Shown: positions 17,833 to 23,143 of the stretch, piece by piece
How positions within the stretch are numbered: position 1 is the first letter of the stretch
Layout: every line of letters starts with the position of its first letter
Source: Olsenella uli DSM 7084
GTDB lineage: Bacteria > Actinomycetota > Coriobacteriia > Coriobacteriales > Atopobiaceae
Length of the DNA stretch: 64,000 nt
Assembly: GCF_000143845.1 (NCBI RefSeq)
Contig: NC_014363.1
Span: forward strand, 357,186-421,185
Reading direction: 5' to 3'
Translations under genes and position numbers: made by a program
Notes under the pieces: generated by a model
Databases searched by the model: none
What the model saw: only the letters and a program-made list of their open reading frames with translations
What the model was told of the DNA's origin: nothing

Positions 17833-18501
17833 CTAGTCGCCCAGGTTCTTGTTGTAGAGCCTGACCTTGCCGCCCACGTTGGCGTAGAGGGAGACCTTGT
17901 TGTCGGCGTCGAGCGCGCCCCAGATCTTGTCTGCTGCGGGCAGTGCGACCTCGACGGGCTCGCCGGAAAAGCTCGGCAGCGGGTTGCCGTCTCCCTGGTA
18001 GGTGCTGATGAAGTAGCCCGTTCTCGCATCTGCTCCCTCGTAGGCGAAGAACTCCCGCACGCAGCGGTCGCTCGCTGCGGGGTCGTTGCCCCCCTGGCGC
18101 TTGAGGAGGGAGAGCTCGAAGCTGCCGTCGGCCTGGACGATGGCGCTGATGCGCGGCGTAAAGTTGGGCGAATCCGGCTCGTAGCTACGCTCCATGCAGC
18201 CGGCGTGCAAGCTGCCCCGCTCGACGATGGTGTCCGTCTGGTCGCCGTTGGTCACCACGAGGGCGTCGCCCATGGCGCGCACAGGGTGGTAGATGATGAG
18301 GCTTGGGTCCTCGAGCCGGGATGGGTCGTGGGCCTCGGTGCGGATGCCGTCCTCGGTGGCCACGAACACGCGGTTCCTGCTGTTGGAGCTGCGTCCCATG
18401 ATCCAGTAGTACACCGCAGGCCTGCCGCTGCGGTCGGTGCCCACCACGATGCCGCGGCCGGGATAGGGGTTGGTGCGGAGGAGCTCGAGCAGGTCCTGCA
18501 T
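17833..18501 (-). CDS. purO: IMP cyclohydrolase, PurO type
   Basis: The 222-residue protein resembles PurO-type IMP cyclohydrolases (YPGRGIVVGTDRSGRPAVYYW, RSSNSRNRVF, NGDQTDTIVERG, NFTPRISA), first known from archaea. It would close FAICAR to IMP. The ATG at 18501 follows AGAGGAAGG; an upstream Met at 18636 is in frame but lies in the promoter. Gene pairing with a PurH lacking its cyclohydrolase domain makes the assignment strong. Its first 17 codons and 179 bp upstream are duplicated at 22912-23143. Confidence 0.88.
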   Translation of the reverse strand: MQDLLELLRTNPYPGRGIVVGTDRSGRPAVYYWIMGRSSNSRNRVFVATEDGIRTEAHDPSRLEDPSLIIYHPVRAMGDALVVTNGDQTDTIVERGSLHAGCMERSYEPDSPNFTPRISAIVQADGSFELSLLKRQGGNDPAASDRCVREFFAYEGADARTGYFISTYQGDGNPLPSFSGEPVEVALPAADKIWGALDADNKVSLYANVGGKVRLYNKNLGD

Positions 18502-18680
18502 GGCCTTCCTCTCTCGTGCGGCGCACTCGCGCGGGGCCTGCCACAAAGGGGCGAGGCAGCCCGCGAGAGACGCGCATGCCCAGACGGTCGGCATATCGTT
18601 TGCTCGCGCCGCTCCCCCGTGGTAGCCCACGATCATCCGTCAGTAGCAGCGCGCCCTTGTCGGCCCCAGTGTAGCGTGCG
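18449..18680. repeat. 232-bp direct repeat, left copy
   Basis: This stretch covers the first 17-18 codons of purO and its upstream region. By eye it is identical over all 232 bases to 22912-23143 (offset 4463). The match begins at ATGCCGCGGCCGGG and ends at GTGTAGCGTGCG; the flanking bases differ on both sides. Confidence 0.95.
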
Positions 18681-18915: not shown

Positions 18916-19482
18916 TTATGGAATCCAAGGATATCCCTGGATGGTGACGAGGACCTTGCGACCATCCGCCTCGCTGCGATTGGCGCATCTTTTGCACCAT
19001 CGGTCGACGACTGCGGAGAGCTCGTCGCCCATGCTCCTTGCCTCTTCGGGAGTCATGCGCAGAACGGAGTCGAAACCGACCTCGCAGCGCATCCATTCCT
19101 CACCAATCTCCGCACAGGCGCTCAGGTAGCGTGAATATGCCTCTGCATACGAGCGGGCCGTCGCTTGTCGTAGGCCAACCTGCACATCGCGAGAGGTGTC
19201 GTCCTTGGCCCCGCCGTCAATCAGGGTTGCTGCGCTCGTCGCCTGCCACCAGCTCTGTCGCTTGTCGGCGTGCTTCTCGTCTAGCTTCTCCGCCAGGCCC
19301 ACTTCGGCAAGGCGTCGCAGGTGATAGCTCGCGCTCCCGGGGGCGAGGCCTATGGCCTCGCAGATTTCACCGACCGTCTGCTCTCCCTGGTTGCGCAAGA
19401 GGGCGAGGACTCTCATACGGTCGGGGTTAGAGAGTACTCTCAGCGAACTGAGGTCCGTGATTCGTTCTACGCCTTCTCTCAT
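18916..19482 (-). CDS. ArsR-like winged-helix repressor of the peptide cassette
   Basis: The 188-residue protein has an ArsR-type wHTH near the start (LRVLSNPDRMRVLALL, TVGEICEAIGLAPGSASYHLRRLAEVGL) followed by an alpha-helical region without obvious metal ligands. A GTG at 19506 would add eight residues; the ATG at 19482 has GGGGG before it. It is divergent from the methyltransferase-peptide-ThiF-MFS operon, and the shared 134-bp region holds a palindrome over the likely promoter, so it is probably the cassette's regulator. What it senses is unknown. Confidence 0.8.
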   Translation of the reverse strand: MREGVERITDLSSLRVLSNPDRMRVLALLRNQGEQTVGEICEAIGLAPGSASYHLRRLAEVGLAEKLDEKHADKRQSWWQATSAATLIDGGAKDDTSRDVQVGLRQATARSYAEAYSRYLSACAEIGEEWMRCEVGFDSVLRMTPEEARSMGDELSAVVDRWCKRCANRSEADGRKVLVTIQGYPWIP

Positions 19483-19544
19483 GCTGCCCCCACGTCTTCG
19501 TTTCACTGCATCCCGCGTCTGTTTAATTATGCAACCTAAGATTG

Positions 19545-19584
19545 TTGACTTTTTAACAACAAGTATTGTACAATAAATGTTAAA
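19545..19584 (+). promoter_or_regulatory. Promoter with palindromic operator for peptide operon
   Basis: TTGACT (19545-19550) and TACAAT (19569-19574), 18 bp apart, form a good sigma-70-type promoter. The perfect palindrome TATTGTACAATA (19564-19575) overlaps the -10 box, and a wider pair TTTAACA/TGTTAAA (19552-19558, 19578-19584) encloses it. This is where a repressor would act. Confidence 0.65.
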
Positions 19585-19616: not shown

Positions 19617-20411
19617 ATGGAAGTGGGCTGCGCTGATCCTTACGAACTTTTTTCTTCCGTATATGATTCCTTCAAAGCTGATGACAATTATTCAGAACTC
19701 TATTCAATCCTAAAGGGTATTCGAGCACAGTGCTCGTTTCCGTTAACATGCCCGTTGGCATGGGACGTTGGCACGGGAACTGGACTCTTCGCGGAGCTGC
19801 TCGCCAAAGATGGCTATGTGACAACGGCAACGGATATCTGCCCCACAATGATTGAACAGGCAAAAATGCGATGCTCTTCGGTAAGGTATTCCGTCGCTGA
19901 TGCTAGAGAGGAGCATCCGGCTGAGAGCTACTTTGATTTGGTGACGGCGATAGATGATGTCTTCAATTGCATTGATAGCCTTTCCGGATTACGGGCAATT
20001 TTCAAGAACATCCATCTTGCCTTGAAGGGCGGCGGTCTCTTTCAATTCGACCTGGTTTGCAAGAAGGCTTTTTTGGAGTACATGGGTTCCGTGCAGTTTC
20101 GCGGAAATGAGTCCGTGAAGTTTCTCTCTTATCCGTCCTCGCCAGCGAGGGACGAGGAACATCAATTCAGCATGGGGGTTTTCACGCTCAGAAGAAGCGC
20201 CAGTAAGAATTCATGGTATCCGACCTTGGTGGAGTTCAAAGAGTATTACTACGAACCTCAGACGGTATATAGAGAGCTTCAACATGTGGGGTTTGAGTTC
20301 GTTCGCGTTGATGCTCTTGGGGACGAGGGACTGATTGAGAACTACTCACCTTGTCTTGGTGAGTCAGCGAATAAGATTCTTTTTTTATGCCGGAAGGGGG
20401 GTGCGCTATGA
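19617..20411 (+). CDS. Class I SAM-dependent methyltransferase of peptide cassette
   Basis: The 264-residue protein has the SAM-binding motif I VGTGTG (residues 51-56), TATDICPTMIEQAK (motif II) and FDLVTAIDDVFNCI (motif IV region). Its base composition is clearly more AT-rich than most neighbours, suggesting transfer. It starts behind AGAGGTG and its stop overlaps the start of the 19-codon peptide gene (ATGA at 20408-20411). In this context it could methylate the peptide or its modification, or transfer another part of SAM as MccD is thought to do in microcin C synthesis; sequence alone does not decide. Confidence 0.85.
   Translation: MEVGCADPYELFSSVYDSFKADDNYSELYSILKGIRAQCSFPLTCPLAWDVGTGTGLFAELLAKDGYVTTATDICPTMIEQAKMRCSSVRYSVADAREEHPAESYFDLVTAIDDVFNCIDSLSGLRAIFKNIHLALKGGGLFQFDLVCKKAFLEYMGSVQFRGNESVKFLSYPSSPARDEEHQFSMGVFTLRRSASKNSWYPTLVEFKEYYYEPQTVYRELQHVGFEFVRVDALGDEGLIENYSPCLGESANKILFLCRKGGAL
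20392..20401 (+). promoter_or_regulatory. Very strong ribosome-binding site for the peptide gene
   Basis: GGAAGGGGGG lies six bases before the ATG at 20408, inside the last codons of the methyltransferase gene. This is among the best Shine-Dalgarno sequences in the cassette and is the main evidence that the short frame is translated, probably at high level. Confidence 0.7.
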
Positions 20412-20467
20412 CTATCGAGAAGGACGAGAAGAAGGTTCAGGCTTCCGAGATCATCAAGAACATCTAG
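20408..20467 (+). CDS. Candidate precursor peptide, 19 residues
   Basis: The frame encodes MTIEKDEKKVQASEIIKNI and stops with TAG. It overlaps the methyltransferase stop by four bases, has a strong ribosome-binding site, and is followed after five bases by a perfect GC hairpin and then by a ThiF/MccB-like adenylating enzyme. Position, size and the hairpin mirror mccA of microcin C operons, where a seven-residue peptide ending in Asn is adenylated. Here the last residue is Ile and Asn is next to last, so either the chemistry differs or the peptide is trimmed. No known family matches by eye. Confidence 0.65.
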   Translation: MTIEKDEKKVQASEIIKNI

Positions 20468-20472
20468 TGGGT

Positions 20473-20498
20473 TGCGAGGGGGGCTTGCCCCCCTCGCA
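20473..20498 (+). terminator. Perfect hairpin between peptide gene and ThiF gene (attenuator)
   Basis: TGCGAGGGGGG (20473-20483), loop CTTG, CCCCCCTCGCA (20488-20498) is a perfect 11-bp stem five bases after the peptide stop. No T-tract follows, so it could act as a partial terminator or RNA-stabilising element that keeps peptide mRNA in excess over enzyme mRNA. In microcin C operons a hairpin at the same place between mccA and mccB has that role. Confidence 0.75.
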
Positions 20499-20519
20499 TC
20501 GTTGATTGCTGAGGCTGCA

Positions 20520-21557
20520 ATGAAGCGATTGAGGTCGGGCGTTGATTACTTTGAATCGTGTGATAAAACGCGACTTGTGATATTTCCGACCTTCGGAAAG
20601 CATTCATATTCAATCCCATCACCGTACGGTGAGGCGCTGCGGGTTCTTGATTGCCTGTCGGATAGGAGGCGTGGAGACGGTGGAGATGACGCTGACTTGC
20701 AAGGTCTTTTGGGCAACGTTGAGCTGTCTGACTTTGTAAATTACCTAGATGATGAAGGGTTGCTGATTGACGAATCCTGCGAGATGGGATTGAGCGATGA
20801 GGCAAGGACGCGCTTTTGTCGGCAGATGGCTTATTTCGAGCAATCGAGTGCTTTTCCGGATAACGTTGAAACTCTTCAGTTAAACCTTGGGAAAAGGAGC
20901 GTAGCTGTCGTTGGCTGTGGCGGAGTCGGCGCACCTGTTGCCGAGTTACTCTCTGCCACGGGCGTTGGACGAATCTTGCTAATTGACGATGATGTAGTTG
21001 AGCTAGGCAACTTGGGGCGCCAGATTGCCTATTCAGAGCAAGATATTGGTGTACCCAAGGTTTCTGCTCTGGCAAAGAGGATAGGCCTTATCAATCCACA
21101 GACCTCTGTGACCGTTATGCAGGAGCGGATAGACGTCGAGAACTATGCGAGGCTTTTGTTAGAGAGTGACTTTGTTGTAGTAGGTGCAGATACCCCTATG
21201 CCAGAACTGCTCTATTGGCTTGATGACCTTGTGGACAAGAGGGGCATTGCCTACATTTGCATGAGCAATTGTCCACCCGTGTTTCGTGTCGGTCCAGTCT
21301 TTGCCCAGCCTGGCGGCATGCGTTACAAGGCGTACCACGAACGGCTGGAGACTAAGTGGCGGGATGCCGCACGGTACGAGTGCTACTCGAATACCGCACA
21401 GGCGAGCAAGGTCACAACGGTTTGGGTGTGCTATGCCGCGGCCGCCATTTCGGTCGGGAACATCGTGCAGTATCTGTTGACCGGCAATTGTGCTCTACTT
21501 GGCCAAGCGTATCTATTCGATATGGAATCGCTCTCGGGCTGGTGGGGAACGGGATGA
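20520..21557 (+). CDS. ThiF/E1-like adenylating enzyme, MccB-like
   Basis: The 345-residue protein has an N-terminal ~90-residue segment (possible peptide-clamp domain) and a ThiF/E1 domain: GCGGVG (132-137), ILLIDDD (152-158), NLGRQIAYSEQDIG (164-177), Lys180 and Asp224. Length and these motifs parallel E. coli MccB (about 350 residues), which joins AMP to the C-terminus of a short peptide. Unlike MccB it has no pair of CxxC zinc motifs in its C-terminal part. The ATG at 20520 is chosen because an upstream Met (20472) lies in the hairpin. Its stop overlaps the MFS start (ATGA). Codon use is less GC-rich than flanking genes. Confidence 0.85.
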   Translation: MKRLRSGVDYFESCDKTRLVIFPTFGKHSYSIPSPYGEALRVLDCLSDRRRGDGGDDADLQGLLGNVELSDFVNYLDDEGLLIDESCEMGLSDEARTRFCRQMAYFEQSSAFPDNVETLQLNLGKRSVAVVGCGGVGAPVAELLSATGVGRILLIDDDVVELGNLGRQIAYSEQDIGVPKVSALAKRIGLINPQTSVTVMQERIDVENYARLLLESDFVVVGADTPMPELLYWLDDLVDKRGIAYICMSNCPPVFRVGPVFAQPGGMRYKAYHERLETKWRDAARYECYSNTAQASKVTTVWVCYAAAAISVGNIVQYLLTGNCALLGQAYLFDMESLSGWWGTG

Positions 21558-22753
21558 TTCAGTCCTCGTTGAGAGGGAATGGCCCTCGCGGGGCGTTCCT
21601 CGTTTCCTACGGGATGGGAGTGGTTGCTGACCAGGTCTTCTATGTGGCGCTCTCCTGGTATGCCCTTGTGGCGACGGACTCGGACATCGCCACCGGGGCA
21701 ATCGTGTCCCTAGGTGCGCTCCCTCGAGCTCTGTTGCTCCTGCCGGGAGGGATGCTCGCTGATCGGCTTGGTCACCGAGTCTCCTCTGTCATCTCGGGGC
21801 TTGTCCGTGCGGCGGTTCTCGCCGTCGCCGCGGCCTTGTGCGGCGCCTCGGGCCCCTCCGTGGCGGCGCTTTCGGCCATGGCCGTCGCCTTTGGGGCAAT
21901 AGAGGCGCTCTACCTGCCGGGAACGCAAAGCATTGTCGCCGACGTGGCCGCCCCGGACGAGCTGGAGCGAACCCAGGGACTCTTCTCGGCCGTGCAGAAA
22001 GCCGGCACCGTTCTTGCGCCGGCCCTTGCTGGATGGGCAGTGCGTGTCCTCGAGCCACGAACGCTGCTGTGGTGCGTGTGCCTGATCGCCCTTGCGTCCA
22101 GCCTGACCCTCGCCGTCGGACCGCGCCGTGAGGAGGCCGTTGGCGGCCCTGTGCCGCAGGTTTCGACCCGAGCGGCTCTCGGTGGCATCCTGCGCGACCC
22201 GGTGATCGCGAGGTGCCTTGCCCTTATCTTGGTCGCCGAGTTCGCCGCTGCGGGCATCACGGGGACGGGCTATGCGCTCCTTTCGGCGCAGAAGGGGTGG
22301 GATGCCGCCCAGATGGGCTCCGTGCTCTCCTTGTACGGTGCCGGGGCGGCGGTGTCGGCGCTTGCCGTTGCGGCCGCGCGGCCGAGAAGGACGTCTGCCT
22401 GGATTGGCTCCTCAACCGCAGTGTGTGGCGTGGCCTTTGCCGTCTCGGGGGTGTCTGGCTTGCCTGCCGCCCGCTTCGCTGCGCTTGTGGCGGGGCTGGG
22501 CGGCGGCGTCTCCTCGACCCTGCTCTTGGCGACCTATCTGTCACGCATCAGAGACGGGCTGGTTGCGACCGCGCTCTCGGTCATGAGCCTGGCGGCCTTC
22601 GGAACTACATCGCTCTCATACGTGCTGTTTGGTGCAGTGTCGTCCAGCACGACGCCCTCGGTCGCGTTTGCCGTCTTTGGCTGCGCGCTCGCCGCAAGCG
22701 GCCTTGCATTCTGGAAGTCGACCGCGACCCTCGGTCGCGGCACCCACCGATAG
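21554..22753 (+). CDS. MFS exporter of the peptide cassette (MccC-like role)
   Basis: The 399-residue protein is a major facilitator with about 12 hydrophobic segments and the loop 2-3 motif GGMLADRLGHRVSS. It resembles drug or peptide-antibiotic efflux pumps of the MFS_3 type. It overlaps the ThiF-like gene by four bases, so both are translated together. In microcin C operons the MFS protein MccC exports the product and protects the producer; that is the inferred role. The gene is more GC-rich than the two genes before it. Its 3' end contains a perfect 8-bp hairpin (22732-22750). Confidence 0.88.
   Translation: MIQSSLRGNGPRGAFLVSYGMGVVADQVFYVALSWYALVATDSDIATGAIVSLGALPRALLLLPGGMLADRLGHRVSSVISGLVRAAVLAVAAALCGASGPSVAALSAMAVAFGAIEALYLPGTQSIVADVAAPDELERTQGLFSAVQKAGTVLAPALAGWAVRVLEPRTLLWCVCLIALASSLTLAVGPRREEAVGGPVPQVSTRAALGGILRDPVIARCLALILVAEFAAAGITGTGYALLSAQKGWDAAQMGSVLSLYGAGAAVSALAVAAARPRRTSAWIGSSTAVCGVAFAVSGVSGLPAARFAALVAGLGGGVSSTLLLATYLSRIRDGLVATALSVMSLAAFGTTSLSYVLFGAVSSSTTPSVAFAVFGCALAASGLAFWKSTATLGRGTHR
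22732..22750 (+). terminator. Hairpin at 3' end of MFS gene
   Basis: CCGCGACC, loop CTC, GGTCGCGG lies within the last codons of the exporter gene. It may stop or process the operon transcript. Confidence 0.4.
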
Positions 22754-22814: not shown

Positions 22815-22912
22815 ATAGCCATATCGGGTATGCCCTTTTGGGCGACCAGCTCCATCTCGTCGCGCGTGAGGTGGTCGGCGCTGACATCAAGGAGGTCCGA
22901 GAGCTGGAGTAA
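22815..22912 (-). pseudogene. C-terminal fragment of an XRE-type regulator
   Basis: Read on the minus strand from 22912, the sequence encodes LLQLSDLLDVSADHLTRDE, which is typical of the end of a Cro/CI helix-turn-helix domain and the start of its linker. The 5' part is absent: the frame is cut exactly at the border of the right 232-bp repeat. Confidence 0.5.
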
Positions 22913-23143
22913 TGCCGCGGCCGGGATAGGGGTTGGTGCGGAGGAGCTCGAGCAGGTCCTGCATGGCCTTCCTCTCTCGTGCGGCGCACTCGCGCGGGGC
23001 CTGCCACAAAGGGGCGAGGCAGCCCGCGAGAGACGCGCATGCCCAGACGGTCGGCATATCGTTTGCTCGCGCCGCTCCCCCGTGGTAGCCCACGATCATC
23101 CGTCAGTAGCAGCGCGCCCTTGTCGGCCCCAGTGTAGCGTGCG
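22912..23143. repeat. 232-bp direct repeat, right copy
   Basis: Identical by eye to 18449-18680. It contains a second ATG and the first 17-18 codons of purO, which here run into the XRE fragment and stop soon after, so it cannot make PurO. Confidence 0.95.

Follow-up and report, generated by a model that had tools for sequence, protein, structure and literature searches.

ThiF-like enzymes turn the free carboxylate of ribosomal peptides into a phosphoramidate, a thiolactone, an imide or an indolylamide. In ThiF-like adenylyltransferase RiPPs (TLAT-RiPPs), the precursor is modified in an ATP-dependent step. The pantocin A enzyme PaaA cyclises an internal Glu-Glu-Asn core, and the microcin C product is a peptide-nucleotide inhibitor of aspartyl-tRNA synthetase. 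Common to the ThiF-like enzymes of RiPP pathways is the adenylation of a carboxylate, followed by attack of differing nucleophiles, namely the Asn amide in MccB, a Cys thiol together with an internal Glu in GrcB, the backbone NH in EnfB and the Trp indole in IndF (PMC12250964, PMC12150305). The microcin C precursors recovered in a database survey all end in Asn, the defining feature of this system, and in the E. coli mcc operon a terminator hairpin lies between mccA and mccB (PMC6495379). The precursors EnfA (enterofaecin) and IndA (indolylamide) end in WWIVI and NWYFI, respectively, and both are cyclised on the C-terminal Ile (PMC12250964, PMC12150305). Methyltransferases are mentioned in the literature close to some ThiF-RiPP genes.

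The type strain of Olsenella uli is a human gingival anaerobe (PMC3035265). The O. uli genome is a single contig of 2,051,896 bp, of which a stretch of 64,000 nucleotides (the window) was analysed here. It harbors a cassette in which genes for a methyltransferase, a short peptide, a ThiF-like adenylyltransferase and an MFS transporter follow one another, with a hairpin between peptide and enzyme and a divergent ArsR-family gene (Table 1). The initial annotation had recognized the logic of mccA-mccB-mccC in the order of precursor, hairpin, enzyme and MFS pump; this order is present and the short peptide gene with its Shine-Dalgarno (SD) sequence and the three features behind it are real, but the methyltransferase, the divergent ArsR gene and the flanking direct repeats had been missed. 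The mccA-mccB-mccC order is also seen in locus L233. We read the cassette, with a probability of about 0.6, as a mobile, self-contained RiPP unit with a 19-residue precursor, adenylation of Ile19 and intramolecular capture of the adenylate. This reading would place a ThiF-RiPP cassette in the Atopobiaceae, in a human oral anaerobe of periodontitis dental plaque and endodontic infection; no paper treating Olsenella together with MccB was found.

Table 1. Features of the O. uli cassette (window coordinates) and of its counterpart in genome G029 (L coordinates).
Feature	Position	Strand	Remarks
Left direct repeat, 232 nt	18449..18680		perfect; 5' end of minus-strand gene 17833-18636, presumably IMP-cyclohydrolase-like
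ArsR-family (HTH_20/HTH_5) regulator	18916..19506	-	divergent; 38% identical to G029 counterpart
Sigma-70-like promoter match TTGACT-18-TACAAT	19545..19574	+	42 nt 5' of methyltransferase gene; consensus match no better than chance
Class I SAM-dependent methyltransferase, 264 aa	19617..20411	+	Pfam; 32-33% identical to G029 one
SD-like GGAAGGGGGG	20392..20401	+	6 nt 5' of peptide ATG
Putative precursor peptide MTIEKDEKKVQASEIIKNI, 19 aa	20408..20467	+	ATG 20408 to TAG 20467
Post-stop nucleotide similarity (TAGTGG..TGC)	20465-20482; L084 2581-2564	minus in L084	
GC-rich hairpin GCGAGGGGGG-CTTG-CCCCCCTCGC	20473..20498 (stem-loop 20474-20497)	+	between peptide and enzyme gene
ThiF-like adenylyltransferase (MccB/PaaA-like), 345 aa	20520..21557	+	E1-type adenylation domain preceded by an N-terminal domain of about 90 residues
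MFS transporter	21554..22753	+	Pfam MFS_1; 34% identical to G029 counterpart; start overlaps ThiF gene stop
Right direct repeat, 232 nt	22912..23143		100% identical to left copy
G029 putative precursor peptide MDFIKEIEKQVNPAEIIKNI, 20 aa	L084 2641-2579	minus	same place in cassette; ends EIIKNI-stop
G029 flanking direct repeats	L231 7829-7951 and 11913-12035		123 nt, 88%

The start codon of the peptide frame overlaps the methyltransferase stop codon as ATGA, as in translational coupling, and the frame has a GC3 of 0.85, against about 0.55 in the neighbouring genes. The SD-like run and the high GC3 are what supports its earlier description as strongly translated. The core of the peptide is free of Trp and of Cys, with Asn18 penultimate to the C-terminal Ile. 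The hairpin behind it has a GC-rich stem of 10 pairs (z -2.2 for its region) and was not scored as a terminator, since a U-run is absent.

Among 140 genomes of the family, a close homologue of the enzyme was found in one other, G029, which belongs to a different genus. There, on the minus strand, a methyltransferase gene, the MDFIKEIEKQVNPAEIIKNI frame, a hairpin followed by TTTTT, and the ThiF and MFS genes stand in this order, with a divergent ArsR gene. The proteins of the two cassettes are 32-38% identical (ThiF 37%, methyltransferase 32%, ArsR 38%, MFS 34%); despite this and the different peptide lengths (19 and 20 aa), the EIIKNI end and its TAG stop codon are identical in both precursors, with two synonymous and zero non-synonymous differences between the core codons, in what is one comparison of two precursors in total. 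When all frames of 8-80 aa in the two cassettes were compared (222 x 233 frames), the precursors were the sole pair sharing at least four C-terminal residues, and the EIIKNI-TAG pattern occurred in just these two of 396 class-level genomes (reversed control, 0). The 19-residue frame is more than chance, because a frame with the identical EIIKNI-stop end sits at the same place of the cassette in another genus. As the TLAT-RiPP class requires, the short frame adjoins the enzyme gene and is conserved with it in the two genomes; a lack of such joint conservation had been named by the initial annotation as speaking against its reading. Its observation of a C-terminus other than Asn extends to both precursors. 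Gene order, core, enzyme family and ATP-site residues are conserved. No third enzyme of this type was recovered in the order-wide search at E 1e-22; overall, the searches covered the family Atopobiaceae, its order and class, plasmids, phages and viral contigs (Bacillota genomes left out). No mention of the EIIKNI peptide motif was found in the literature.

Similarity of the two cassettes runs beyond the precursor TAG, with a shared TGG and agreement at 10 of 15 bases (reached by 0.0009 of random pairs), in a stretch readable as W.AR. Read-through of the TAG was considered but is not favoured: the genome has no match to pyrrolysyl-tRNA synthetase, and both MFS genes also end in TAG.

The enzyme is MccB/PaaA-like and stands nearer to these proteins than to MoeB or ThiF. 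Pfam ThiF matched it with an E value of 8e-33, phmmer against the PDB placed MccB first (1.9e-18), and in the profile search proposed by the initial annotation against MccB, PaaA and E1-like families, a two-sequence profile ranked MccB (1.6e-31, positions 68-327) and PaaA (2.8e-24) ahead of Uba4, TcdA, ThiF and MoeB. Scores with the NCBIfam ThiF and MoeB models were far under the cut-offs. Two trees recovered the O. uli and G029 enzymes as a supported pair, together with MccB and other RiPP-type enzymes and outside MoeB/ThiF; support for the RiPP-side placement was moderate (93/93 in one tree, 86/83 in the other), a robust MccB clade holding the enzyme was absent in both, and, with long branches and with pantocin-type and other RiPP-type rows moving between builds, no finer placement is claimed. 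A grouping with MoeB/ThiF housekeeping proteins, named by the initial annotation as speaking against its reading, was seen neither in these moderately supported trees nor in the NCBIfam scores. The other ThiF-family gene of O. uli sits elsewhere in the genome.

The AlphaFold model of the enzyme has a mean pLDDT of 76, with values above 90 in the core of the catalytic part and low values (about 43-74) in the N-terminal part; an earlier structure prediction from the two sequences was discarded as too poor (pLDDT 49). With the AlphaFold model, the best 26 Foldseek matches were all PaaA or MccB chains, PaaA being top, in alignments spanning 314-363 columns whose N-terminal part is modelled at low confidence. 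VIA-align scored ThiF, MoeB, MccB and PaaA alike (Z about 27), for the most part across residues 82-345; taken by itself, the catalytic fold therefore cannot decide between them. The N-terminal ~90 residues, at the place where TLAT-RiPP enzymes carry a fused RiPP recognition element, follow a strand-strand-strand-helix-helix-helix order in the models, at low pLDDT, and Pfam revealed no convincing match in this domain. The enzyme has a ThiF/E1 adenylation domain with conserved ATP-site residues, as the TLAT-RiPP class requires: the G132-G137 motif and R167, Q168, K180 and D224 are conserved, and R167, K180 and D224 match Arg167, Lys180 and Asp225 of EnfB in kind and spacing (PMC12250964). The two CxxC motifs of MccB are absent from both the O. 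uli and the G029 enzyme.

With microcin C, the cassette shares a short precursor with a strong SD sequence, a hairpin, a ThiF-like enzyme and an MFS pump, in this order, as well as an enzyme with MccB as best sequence-profile match and the ATP-site Arg, Gln, Lys and Asp kept. It differs in precursors of 19-20 aa ending in Ile, in enzymes without the two CxxC motifs and in a methyltransferase gene upstream of the precursor, whose product has no similarity to MccD detectable by sequence; an MccD-like role for it was considered and is without sequence support. Identity with microcin C was rejected, since both precursors are without the defining C-terminal Asn and both enzymes without the paired CxxC motifs of MccB. 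The initial annotation had set the Ile end against microcin C-type precursors ending in Asn and seen in it a possible sign of new chemistry; among ThiF-like RiPPs, an Ile end has precedents in EnfA and IndA (PMC12250964, PMC12150305).

Like EnfA, whose C-terminal carboxylate is adenylated, the present precursor has about 20 residues and an Ile end; the core without Trp, the leader without a (V/I)RKA motif, and the MFS and methyltransferase genes, as opposed to the transporters and regulators described there, set it apart from enterofaecin as far as descriptions of EnfB allow. The Ile end is also shared with IndA, where it provides the carboxylate that a ThiF-like enzyme activates. IndA, however, cyclises via Trp, and the ind cluster has an M16 peptidase, neither of which is found here (IndF was compared by description). 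Pantocin A is close in its enzyme, PaaA being the top Foldseek and second profile match, and a Vibrio pantocin-family enzyme is likewise without CxxC motifs, whereas the internal Glu-Glu-Asn motif is absent from the present peptide. EnfA and IndA both depend on Trp. Since the peptide has an Ile end but neither Trp nor Cys, the capture step must differ or use another partner, and the invariant EIIKNI core points to a further ThiF-RiPP product type.

In the mechanism that we favour, the peptide is presumably the substrate of the enzyme, with residues 1 to about 12 as leader, which would be bound by the N-terminal domain of the MccB/PaaA-like enzyme, and the (S/A)EIIKNI C-terminus as core. The enzyme would adenylate a carboxylate, with that of Ile19 at the C-terminus as the likeliest target, and the acyl-adenylate would be captured within the peptide to give a C-terminal macrocycle. 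The leading candidate for the nucleophile is the side chain of the invariant Lys17, which would yield a 13-membered Lys-Asn-Ile lactam and lower the mass by 18 Da. Alternatively, the nucleophile may be the amide of Asn18 or, following EnfA, a backbone NH. The methyltransferase is predicted to methylate the peptide or the product, the MFS pump to export the product, which would presumably have a biological role, and the divergent ArsR regulator to control expression. Tentatively, and at somewhat less than even odds, we propose that the cassette represents a RiPP class of its own beside microcin C, pantocin, GRC, enterofaecin and indolylamide, in which methylation belongs to the pathway and an Ile acyl-adenylate meets either the amine of Lys17, forming a Lys-Ile macrolactam, or the amide of Asn18. 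Consisting of one enzyme and a short peptide, the system is easy to test.

Activation of Ile might also be followed by capture of the adenylate from outside the peptide, by an amine, a nucleotide or another nucleophile, so that the product would be linear and capped at its C-terminus. EnfB can amidate the C-terminus of its substrate when amines are present (PMC12250964), and MccB joins its peptide to a nucleotide in a linear conjugate, yet the relatives ending in Ile cyclise and, besides the methyltransferase, the cassettes conserve no enzyme that would supply a partner, which makes this outcome rather unlikely. Somewhat less likely still is activation of the Glu14 side chain, in the manner of pantocin A or of GrcB with its internal Glu; the capturing group would then be Lys17 or a nitrogen of the backbone. 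This would accord with the invariance of Glu14, with PaaA as second profile and top Foldseek match, and with the lack of CxxC motifs as in the pantocin-family Vibrio enzyme; the Ile-stop end, invariant across lengths of 19 and 20 aa, fits instead a recognition of the end itself.

Prior trimming had been one of three suggestions of the initial annotation, of which new C-terminal adenylation or cyclisation chemistry, or else a separate ThiF-type RiPP, is favoured here. A host carboxypeptidase would remove the last Ile and expose Asn18 for AMP attachment by microcin C chemistry, for which the invariant penultimate Asn, MccB as nearest solved enzyme and a 42-aa MccA precursor known in Yersinia (PMC6495379) can be adduced. 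We regard this as improbable: neither the O. uli nor the G029 cassette has a peptidase gene, precursors of known systems already end in Asn (PMC6495379), an invariant Ile is hard to explain if it is discarded, and the methyltransferase has no detectable similarity to MccD. Least probable of all is a regulatory leader peptide, in which ribosome stalling at EIIKNI and the hairpin would attenuate expression of enzyme and pump. In its favour, a hairpin, which in G029 resembles a terminator, stands immediately behind the conserved C-terminal motif, and nucleotide similarity extends past the stop. Against it, the frame lies inside the operon, behind the methyltransferase gene rather than at the 5' end; a ThiF enzyme of the RiPP type requires a peptide, and the cassettes share no further short frame at the C-terminus; and the succession of precursor, hairpin and enzyme is also that of E. 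coli mcc (PMC6495379).

The proposed RiPP cassette has apparently spread as a unit. At both cassettes, the direct repeats duplicate the end of an adjacent host gene, and in G028 (L247), a genome of the same genus as G029 without the cassette, the site is empty, the HIT-type gene continuing directly into the downstream sequence. The methyltransferase and ThiF genes have a G+C content of 48-52% in O. uli, against 65% in the window, and of 40-43% in G029, against 59% in the region. No integrase was seen inside either roughly 4-kb unit. In G029, a 23-nt inverted repeat (91%; L231 11860-11912) located after the ArsR gene abuts the right direct repeat and may be a terminator or an end structure.

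Beyond the two cassettes, the genome-contig scan with the enzyme, in which one search pattern was generic, returned mainly MoeB-like loci. Viral-contig scans with the enzyme yielded no true relative, and the listed viral-contig matches to a shorter peptide pattern were rejected as presumed chance. No plasmid sequence matched the G029 peptide, and the plasmid and phage searches gave only enzymes under 60% identity, the best-covered at 25%. The nearest other enzymes of the family, in genomes G038 and G039, sit in a different type of locus. In G039 (L249 2890-5911, reverse strand) and G038 (L248), a strong SD sequence and the frame MTTIEVKPVEEVSTTCHVDQHC, of 22 aa, precede a ThiF enzyme with CxxC motifs, followed by proteins of 477 and 199 aa, of which we take the former to resemble an M14-type peptidase; this locus is possibly another RiPP. 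On the Salmonella plasmid pLG24p2 (L237 2146-6673), an ArsR gene diverges from a ThiF-MFS pair and a 17-aa frame, MKFTKHATSNAKLALVG, lies in the gap; among the comparison enzymes, this ThiF protein had the best BLASTP score after G029. On a Lactiplantibacillus plantarum plasmid (L092 1957-4415), a ThiF and MFS pair, the best-covered plasmid relative (25% identity), is located between IS elements.
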